DNA of 64,000 nucleotides from a bacterium (lineage in GTDB: Bacteria > Cyanobacteriota > Vampirovibrionia > Gastranaerophilales > Gastranaerophilaceae), in the NCBI GenBank assembly GCA_017652265.1, contig JAGCBH010000006.1, forward strand, positions 1-64,000. The letters are read 5' to 3'. A program made the translations under genes and the position numbers. Of this stretch, positions 40 to 7,345 are shown in pieces. Every line of letters begins with the position of its first letter. Position 1 is the first letter of the stretch. The notes under the pieces are model-generated. The model was not told the origin of the DNA and did no database searches. It saw nothing but the letters and a program-made list of their open reading frames with translations.

Positions 40-129
40 CGGAGAAGGTGGGATTCGAACCCACGGTACAGGTTGCCCCATACAACACCTTAGCAGGGTG
101 CCGCCTTAAACCTACTCGGCCACTTCTCC
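40..129 (-). tRNA. tRNA-Ser(GCU)
   Basis: Read on the minus strand, the gene has a 7-bp acceptor stem (GGAGAAG with CTTCTCC), a D-arm, a 5-bp anticodon stem around loop CTGCTAA (anticodon GCU, reading AGC/AGU), a long class II variable arm and a T-loop GGTTCGAATCC. The discriminator base is G, as usual for serine tRNAs. The 3' CCA is not encoded, so it must be added after transcription. About 90 nt. Confidence 0.96.
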
Positions 130-729: not shown

Positions 730-2211
730 TTACAGTTCTTCGTATACTTCTATTGGTGCATAGAAAGATATTTCTTCTCTGCAGGTTACAGTTATTTCGT
801 TAAAGTAGCATGACAACATTTTATATATCAAATATCTGAACTCTAACGGTACCAGAACTGTATTGCAATCGTATTTTTTTATTAATTTTGCGATTTTCTT
901 TGCCAATTTATCCGCATATTTTGCATCAATTTTAATGATTTCACCATATTCATCTTCATCAACAGTTCTGTCACAAATTTCTATCAAAGAGTCTTCCGTT
1001 ATTTCAAGCGCTTTTACAACACCTGTTTCATCCGATAATCTTTTGGCAATACGACTGCCGAGTGATAATCTGAGTTTCCTAAGAATATCGTCTTTTTCGC
1101 TTTCGCCGGCCAAATCGTTGATTTTTTCAAATATATAAGTTATATCTTTTATAGAAATTCTTTCATTGATTAGCCCTGTTATAATGTATCTCAAATCCGC
1201 AAAGCTTAACAAATTAGGAACCAGATTATCTACAAGAAATTCATTGTTTTTTTCAACAACATCAATATATTTATCCAATTCCTTGTAATCAAGCAAATCG
1301 TCAACGTGTTTTACGGTAACAAATTCCAGCGCTCTTGTTATGCACTGAGCTCCGGAAAGTCCCTGTTCCCAAAAATCTTTGCACTTATCTTTCGGAACCC
1401 AGACAATCTTTTTATCCGTAATAACATCAGTATCATAAATAAAGTCTTTTGACTTTTTCGCAAGATTAAGATCATCGGCAAAGAACATCAAATGTCCCGG
1501 ATAAACATTCGCACGTAATACATCTATTCCTCTAATACGAATTGCAAATTCATAAGGATTAAGAGATTCATCATCCTTAAAAATAATTTTCGGTATAATA
1601 TAACCTAATTCATCGGTCAATTTTACACGTAATTTAACTGTTTCCGCTATAAGTTCTTCTTCATCAATATCCTGTTCCGGATCTATATAGCCGATAATTT
1701 CTTCACTCATACGTATAACAAGTTTGTCTTCGGACAGATTTTTATACATCCCGTCAGGAGATGTCGTTTCAGCTAACTGACGTTTTAAATCGTCCATTTC
1801 CTTCAGACCTGAGGAAATAGTATTATTGAGACGTTTTCTGCCTGCAGCTTCCAAATCTTCCTTTTCAAGCTCTTTTTTAGCTTTGTTAATTTTATTTTTA
1901 ACCTCTTTTAATTTCATCTGAATATCAACGCATTTTTCATAAGGGGTAAGTTTTGGAGAAAGAAGTTTTTCCATCTGGCTCTTAAAATTGGAAATACTGA
2001 CTTCATCAATGTTTTTTGTAAGCGAAAAGCTTGAATCACTGCGCATAAATATACAATTGTACTGAATATCGCCGTCATTAACCTCAACTTCATTAATTGC
2101 ATAAAGTTCCCAGCCGTCTTTTGACATCTCATTTAATAAATTTTGTAATGCCTCAACATCCTCACTGGGACAAGTGCGTATTACATACTGAACTTTTGAG
2201 TCTTTGAACAT
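730..2211 (-). CDS. DUF4177-like / FlhA (FHIPEP) cytoplasmic-domain fusion protein without export-gate membrane region
   Basis: 493 residues. I chose the ATG at 2211 because GGAG lies 7 nt before it; a TTG four codons upstream overlaps that SD. Residues about 7-57 resemble DUF4177 (WELYAINEVEV, YNCIFMR). About 98-148 form a charged coiled coil. About 165-490 match the cytoplasmic domain of FlhA/SctV, the export-gate protein of flagellar and type III secretion systems: ELGYIIPKIIFKDDESLNPY, RGIDVLRANVYPGH, VDNLVPNLLSFADLRYII, ERISIKDITYIFEKI and LRLSLGSRIAKRL follow the family's block order. In FlhA this part sits below about eight membrane helices and forms a nonameric ring that docks chaperone-substrate complexes. 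Here there are no membrane segments and no flagellar genes in the window. It may be a soluble ring or adaptor; its function is not known to me. Confidence 0.85.
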   Translation of the reverse strand: MFKDSKVQYVIRTCPSEDVEALQNLLNEMSKDGWELYAINEVEVNDGDIQYNCIFMRSDSSFSLTKNIDEVSISNFKSQMEKLLSPKLTPYEKCVDIQMKLKEVKNKINKAKKELEKEDLEAAGRKRLNNTISSGLKEMDDLKRQLAETTSPDGMYKNLSEDKLVIRMSEEIIGYIDPEQDIDEEELIAETVKLRVKLTDELGYIIPKIIFKDDESLNPYEFAIRIRGIDVLRANVYPGHLMFFADDLNLAKKSKDFIYDTDVITDKKIVWVPKDKCKDFWEQGLSGAQCITRALEFVTVKHVDDLLDYKELDKYIDVVEKNNEFLVDNLVPNLLSFADLRYIITGLINERISIKDITYIFEKINDLAGESEKDDILRKLRLSLGSRIAKRLSDETGVVKALEITEDSLIEICDRTVDEDEYGEIIKIDAKYADKLAKKIAKLIKKYDCNTVLVPLEFRYLIYKMLSCYFNEITVTCREEISFYAPIEVYEEL

Positions 2212-6071: not shown

Positions 6072-6263
6072 ATGGCGATAAGAGTTTTGATTTTTTTGCT
6101 TGCATTTGTTGTTATAGCAAATTTAATAATATCACTTGTCGGTTTGATTTTCGGGGTTAATTTATACAAATCATATAGTAAATCAATATTGATAGGTCAC
6201 GCAGGTTTTGCACTTGTTGTAGCGGTAACATTTATAATAATGGCAATTGTGGGGCTGATGTAA
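6072..6263 (+). CDS. Small membrane protein with two transmembrane helices
   Basis: 63 residues, almost entirely two hydrophobic helices (about 4-28 and 41-62) joined by a short polar loop (NLYKSYSKS). A strong SD (GAGGGGG) lies before the ATG. The stop codon overlaps the next start as TAATG, so translation is probably coupled to the SPFH protein. It may be a partner of that membrane protein; no family recognised. Confidence 0.75.
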   Translation: MAIRVLIFLLAFVVIANLIISLVGLIFGVNLYKSYSKSILIGHAGFALVVAVTFIIMAIVGLM

Positions 6264-7345
6264 TGAAAAAAAGTTTTACTTTAGCGGAAATGCTTATTAC
6301 CCTGGGCATAATCGGCGTTGTTGTTGCAATGGTTTTACCTGAGTTAAAAGGAGTTAGTTTTTCGGATATTTTTATAGTTTTTGTCATTCTGGCAATAGTA
6401 TTTGCGGCCCCGATATGGGAAGCATTGAATAAAACAAAGAAACCCGCATATAAAAAAGCAAAAGTTCAATATGACTACGATGCAAAAATAGTCAAAGATT
6501 ACGCAGGTAAAGCAAAAGACTTTATAGACAAATTTTTTGATAATGAAAAGAAAGAGGTAAAAATGGAAAGAAGTGGTTTGGCAGGTATAGTTGCCGTAAT
6601 TATTTTGTTCATCGTTGCAGTAATGCTATGTAATCCGATAGTTGTTGTCGGAGCAGGTGAAAGAGGTGTAAAAGTTACTTTGGGTAAAGTTTCTCAGGAA
6701 AGTTTCGGTGAAGGTATGCACTTTATAACACCTTATATTTCAAAAATCGTAAAAATGGACGTTAAAACTCAAAAGTACAGTACACAGACTCACGTTTACA
6801 CAAAAGATATTCAACAGGCAACAATTTCTTACGTTGTAAACTATAATCTGCTTGCAGACAGCGCTTTCAGAATGTATCAGGAAGTCGGCATGGATTACGT
6901 TTCAAAAGTTATAAACCCGGTTTTGGAAGGTACAATTAAAGACGTTATCGGTAAATGGAACGCTCAGGATTTGGTTGCAAACAGAGAAGAAGCAACAAAC
7001 GACATCCTTTATAAACTTCGTGATCAGCTTATGGACAGATACGTAAACGTAACAAGTTTCCAAATCGTTGATATAAATTATTCCGAAGTTTTTGAACGCG
7101 CTATTGAAAGTAAAGTTACGGCTGAACAAGATGCACTGAAAGCTAAAAACAAAACTGTTCAGATCCAGGAAGAAGCACGCCAAAAGGTTATTTCTGCTGA
7201 AGCTGAAGCAAAATCAATGAGTATAAGAGCAAACGCTTTAACTCAAAACAAAGCTCTTGTCGAATATGAAGCTGTTCAAAAATGGAACGGTATTCTCCCG
7301 ACATACATGATGGGTAACTCTGTTCCGTTTATTAATCTGAGATAA
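6263..7345 (+). CDS. SPFH/Band 7 (prohibitin-like) protein with prepilin-like N-terminal extension
   Basis: 360 residues. Residues 1-28 read like a type IV pilin/pseudopilin head (KSFTLAEMLITLGIIG), but Ser replaces the usual Gly before the cleaved Phe. A second hydrophobic stretch is at about 34-50. A third (about 106-126) leads directly into a Band 7 domain: VVVGAGERGVKVTLGKV, then the SPFH core to about 300 and an Ala/Glu-rich coiled coil (RQKVISAEAEAKSMSIRA). Ordinary prohibitins begin just before that third segment. An in-frame ATG at 6563 (codon 101, MERSGLAGIV) has its own SD (AAAGAGG, 6551-6557), so a standard-length SPFH protein could be made from the same gene. SPFH proteins form large membrane-bound rings. 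Coupled to the upstream two-helix protein. Confidence 0.85.
   Translation: MKKSFTLAEMLITLGIIGVVVAMVLPELKGVSFSDIFIVFVILAIVFAAPIWEALNKTKKPAYKKAKVQYDYDAKIVKDYAGKAKDFIDKFFDNEKKEVKMERSGLAGIVAVIILFIVAVMLCNPIVVVGAGERGVKVTLGKVSQESFGEGMHFITPYISKIVKMDVKTQKYSTQTHVYTKDIQQATISYVVNYNLLADSAFRMYQEVGMDYVSKVINPVLEGTIKDVIGKWNAQDLVANREEATNDILYKLRDQLMDRYVNVTSFQIVDINYSEVFERAIESKVTAEQDALKAKNKTVQIQEEARQKVISAEAEAKSMSIRANALTQNKALVEYEAVQKWNGILPTYMMGNSVPFINLR

Follow-up and report, generated by a model that had tools for sequence, protein, structure and literature searches.

Work on the cytoplasmic domain (FlhA_C) of FlhA, the gate protein of flagellar export, usually treats it as the lower ring of a single membrane protein, and the locus described here raises the question of what such a domain does when it is encoded without its gate. 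The gene lies in the first 64,000 nucleotides of contig JAGCBH010000006.1 (assembly GCA_017652265.1, a member of the Gastranaerophilales, class Vampirovibrionia), the whole stretch being referred to below as the window. It is an intact open reading frame of 493 codons plus stop on the minus strand (positions 730-2211; ATG at 2211, stop codon at 730-732), and its product is named FlhA-S. Homologues align from this ATG; an alternative TTG start is found 12 bases upstream, at position 2223. An earlier interpretation made without any database search (the sequence-only reading) had proposed an FlhA-type cytoplasmic domain devoid of membrane helices, joined through a coiled-coil linker to a DUF4177-like head. 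The Pfam profile search that it called for reports a significant FHIPEP (PF00771) match (147.5 bits, E 7.3e-43, curated cut-off 29.1), in which FlhA-S residues 142-482 align to profile positions 321-653 of 657, that is, to the cytoplasmic half only. The domain occupies about 340 residues at the C-terminus (within residues 142-493; positions 733-1788, minus strand). A sequence search of the PDB returns FlhA_C of B. subtilis (3mix, E 1.7e-19). The AlphaFold model of the single chain, built from 50 family members (mean predicted local distance difference test score 78.5, predicted template modelling score 0.67), was submitted to Foldseek against the PDB: the best 50 matches are all FlhA or SctV cytoplasmic domains, with FlhA_C 6ch2 at the top (E 3.8e-21).

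FlhA-S does not have the full-length FHIPEP architecture of membrane gate plus cytoplasmic domain. Indeed, it has no membrane helix, its best 19-residue Kyte-Doolittle mean being 1.3, as compared with 3.1 and 10 peaks by the same measure in the full-length FlhA of its own genome (FlhA2, see below). With the NCBIfam equivalogs, it scores 130.9 bits against the FlhA model TIGR01398 (cut-off 772.1) and 88.4 bits against the SctV model TIGR01399 (cut-off 692.25), SctV thus sharing the fold family but being a weaker sequence match than FlhA. The linker is modelled as a helical hairpin (residues 90-149, positions 1765-1944, minus strand) made up of helices 90-115 and 122-149. Regarding the head (residues 7-58, positions 2038-2193, minus strand), the model exhibits a β-α-β-β arrangement, and this segment is among the most conserved parts of the protein across the order. 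DUF4177 (PF13783), with its GWEL-type motif, is a likely relative: 14 of 24 relatives return it at E <= 1 (best 3e-4), but single heads mostly score under the curated cut-off, as the window protein does (16.4 bits versus 25), and PDB sequence profiles give chance-level matches only. The head as a DUF4177-like domain is plausible.

A search with the window protein detects FlhA-S in 282 of 286 Gastranaerophilales genomes (best E < 1e-70), most of which appear to be draft metagenome assemblies; the four remaining (G028, G135, G223 and G229) return only matches at the level of full-length FlhA. All seven sampled families of the order are covered, the architecture of about 490 residues is the same throughout, flagellated families included, and genomes with and without flagella both carry the gene. 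Close relatives that bear a name are mostly metagenome-assembled genomes of Candidatus Gastranaerophilales or Melainabacteria. The spread over 282 genomes makes contamination at binning unlikely. A viral origin was also considered, and none of 42 pattern matches in viral contigs encodes a relative. In a tree of the C-terminal domains, the 18 FlhA-S rows group as a single clade (100/100), which a branch supported at 99/100 places on the side of FlhA2, with a stem of 1.46 changes per column, and FlhA2 is the closest full-length relative by both tree and score. The ratio of nonsynonymous to synonymous substitution rates (dN/dS) between near relatives is 0.02-0.06. FlhA-S is thus under strong purifying selection and has a single origin from the FlhA2 side.

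Fold, domain order and the significant PF00771 match are common to FlhA-S and to FlhA_C of the flagellar gate, from which it differs by the missing membrane part, the additional head and hairpin, and several key residues. The latter were compared over the 18 FlhA-S rows, with positions numbered as in Salmonella FlhA (represented by the PDB row of the F459A mutant). Position D456 is an Asp in 18/18. In contrast, the GYXLI glycine, reported as critical for the domain motions of FlhA (PMC9431611) and present in all FlhA1 and FlhA2 rows, is replaced by Ser in 17 of the 18 and by Asn in the other; 15 of 18 have Thr or Ser at position F459, and position T490 is mostly Arg, Lys or Glu. Hence D456 alone is kept from the chaperone dimple (D456, F459, T490), and neither the classical chaperone site nor the conserved hinge is retained as such in these 18 proteins.

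Does the genome that encodes FlhA-S also encode an export machine? The sequence-only reading had noted no flagellar or type III genes nearby, which holds for the neighbours checked (window positions ~1-10 kb). The genome as a whole (1.59 Mb, 66 contigs, 96.9% complete) does contain such genes. Profile matches, on which the gene names given here rest, report an intact, divergent, full-length FlhA2 at C63:10125-12224, preceded by FliE, FliF, a gene at the expected position of FliG, and FliH. FliM/N-like, FliO, FliP, FliQ and FliR proteins are encoded on C65, FlgC-like, FlgB-like and two FlgF/G-like proteins on C62, FlhB on C47 and FliI on C17, while a FliJ-like open reading frame at C59 scores under the cut-off. 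The export gate (FlhA2, FliP/Q/R, FlhB), the MS-ring (FliF) and the rod set (FliE, FlgB/C/F/G-like) are therefore represented. Most of the proteins tested fall just or well under the flagellar equivalog cut-offs, FliP2 passing its own. No flagellin match was obtained, and the rod family yields two small-protein matches and no hook-sized one; at 96.9% completeness these absences are not absolute. Flagellated relatives yield strong hook-sized rod-family matches too. We refer to this set as system 2.

Across the order, system 2 is found both in relatives that lack flagellin and, alongside flagella, in others. An FHIPEP match above 800 bits (FlhA1) is listed for 115 of the 286 genomes, and nearly all the others have a best match of ~730 bits (FlhA2). 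Of 14 sampled genomes, 8 have both flagellin and a second FliP and the other 6 have neither, whereas FliP2 and FliI2 are present in 14/14. In genome G006, an operon-like run comprises rod genes, a gene taking the place of a transglycosylase gene of G007, then FliE, FliF, the FliG-position gene, FliH and FlhA2, with the flagellar FlhA located away from it. The tree of full-length FlhA separates FlhA1 from FlhA2, and each clade spans several families of the class outside the order, which dates the split to before the origin of the order. Such genes were taken for incomplete or reduced flagella by Soo et al. 2014 and Di Rienzi et al. 2013 (PMC4040986, PMC3787301).

Several further features of system 2 deserve mention. 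The gene between FliF2 and FliH2 (L003:8301-9401, L134:4872-5831, L138:11977-12933) returns no family match in the source genome and a sub-threshold FliG_C match in G007. In the latter genome, the transglycosylase (L134:8485-9102; SLT, 118 bits) lies between the FlgC2 and FliE2 genes, as one would expect of an apparatus spanning the cell wall. On C47 of the source genome, about 4 kb away from flhB2, L277:519-866 encodes a protein of 115 residues whose N-terminus, SSQKSLLTMRKNDLQ, loosely resembles that of G006 L280:2641-3537; it is a possible lead to system-2 substrates. A strict pattern for a proposed N-terminal export-signal motif gives no match, and a looser one matches a single open reading frame of the source genome.

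From homology, fold, spread, descent and constraint, which are direct observations, we infer a function. Our preferred reading, held at about even confidence, makes FlhA-S a descendant of FlhA2 that serves system 2 as a soluble accessory subunit for docking or regulation. System 2 would be a second flagellum-type export apparatus, kept whether or not flagella are also built. A single event at the root of the order would have given rise to FlhA-S: duplication of the FlhA2 cytoplasmic domain, minus the membrane part, and its fusion to a DUF4177-like head and a helical hairpin. The FlhA_C body of FlhA-S may dock directly onto, or next to, the FlhA2 ring, the FliH-FliI-FliJ complex or both. A cargo, chaperone or regulator not taken by FlhA2 may be bound by the head and the altered cleft, FlhA-S thereby escorting or gating a subset of substrates. 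The sequence-only reading had proposed a repurposed secretion docking platform. The gate-less FlhA_C, the new head and linker and the conserved, distinct protein agree with this, and FlhA-S may be a docking platform; the implied absence of a secretion machine does not hold. A flagellar-type export apparatus, including an intact FlhA2, is encoded in the genome, so the domain need not have been repurposed away from secretion.

Membership of system 2 is suggested by descent, by co-occurrence and, indirectly, by a protein fusion in G041. There, a gate-less variant distinct from FlhA-S (L179:5042-6823, 593 residues, two membrane peaks, devoid of the D2 part) begins with a stretch homologous to the N-terminal stretch of the system-2 FliG-position protein encoded between FliF and FliH. 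Genome neighbourhood lends it little support: over ~40 neighbourhoods, synteny is local only, with no conserved neighbour or operon across the order. In genus g41 (G007, G013), the FlhA-S gene just precedes fliJ, fliK, flgD and flgE. Several observations speak against the favoured role. The FlhA-S gene is not consistently linked to the genes of system 2; only these two genomes place it next to fliJ, sister genus g47 does not, and the FliJ concerned is the one beside hook genes. Other orders have FlhA2 without FlhA-S, and at least three genomes of the order (G122, G218, G238) have FlhA-S and no full-length FlhA that could be found, perhaps owing to assembly gaps. Lastly, given its altered chaperone-site and hinge residues, FlhA-S may bind something else.

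Alternatively, FlhA-S could act as a decoy or brake, keeping FliJ, chaperones or substrates in the cytosol and thereby restricting or timing export through system 2 and, in species that have one, through the flagellum. A soluble protein that keeps the FlhA_C fold, is encoded next to fliJ in g41 and occurs in flagellated and unflagellated species alike would suit this role. However, the known chaperone-binding positions F459 and T490 are mostly altered, which argues against plain competition for chaperones, and no regulatory context was found; we regard a brake as rather unlikely. The lost hinge and dimple residues, together with the long stem branch, would fit a protein that has left secretion for another role, such as a ring-forming scaffold tied to the cell envelope or to translation. 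Its neighbours are housekeeping genes: several genera have BamA and a Skp-like protein upstream, and family f7 has infC-rplT. These neighbours vary between lineages, however, and FlhA-S continues to co-occur with system 2 throughout the order; such a departure is a minority possibility, to be kept in mind next to the accessory subunit that we favour.

That FlhA-S is a remnant or one half of an flhA broken after flagellar loss could be suspected from the flagellin-free lineages of the order and from the partial flagella of the earlier papers, but it is highly improbable. The flhA2 gene is whole elsewhere in the source genome, the architecture is shared by the seven families, and the near-universal clade evolves at the low dN/dS reported above; a split or pseudogene flhA is ruled out on these grounds. 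Nor does the combination of a complete flagellum and a split flhA apply, as in flagellated relatives the flagellar FlhA, FlhA2 and FlhA-S are encoded by three distinct genes.

FlhA2 itself, unlike FlhA-S, has a whole membrane gate and its own cytoplasmic domain. A precedent for flagellar export proteins retained without a flagellum is provided by the unflagellated Chlamydia pneumoniae, for which three flagellar orthologues (FliI, FlhA and FliF) and an interaction with the injectisome have been reported (PMC2830194); the Gastranaerophilales set is fuller, with rod proteins and a soluble FlhA_C. More tentatively, and with somewhat less than even confidence, Gastranaerophilales and other Vampirovibrionia might possess a type III exporter of a third kind, namely a basal body devoid of hook and filament, with its own rod, ATPase and gate, inherited vertically beside the flagellum. 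In Gastranaerophilales, the soluble FlhA-like docking subunit would then be a second, gate-independent platform for substrate sorting. We found no report of a DUF4177-FlhA_C fusion in the literature searched, and no description of a soluble FlhA_C protein or of a second export system in this group in the open-access literature that was searched. A natural gate-less FlhA_C, strongly selected across an order frequent in the guts of animals, would offer a way to ask what the FlhA_C ring does alone, and genes previously taken for incomplete or reduced flagellar sets point to a conserved export machine in flagellin-free gut bacteria.

The FlhA-S architecture is absent from the sampled genomes of other orders, some of which have FlhA2 and other gate-less FlhA_C proteins. 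Besides the G041 variant, FlhA_C proteins without a full gate are encoded in the same class by L180:4972-5979 (G016), L174:5295-6956 (G313) and L178:3998-4867 (G311). The N-termini of these four differ, two of them lack the D2 part, and copying of FlhA_C seems to have occurred repeatedly in this class. Elsewhere in the window, a Band_7/SPFH protein (115.8 bits) is encoded at positions 6263-7345 (plus strand). Its 25 N-terminal residues are similar to a type IV pilin methylation motif (N_methyl), which at 19.3 bits falls slightly short of the cut-off; the combination is an unusual one. The sole tRNA of the window is a tRNA-Ser (gct) at positions 40-129 (minus strand).
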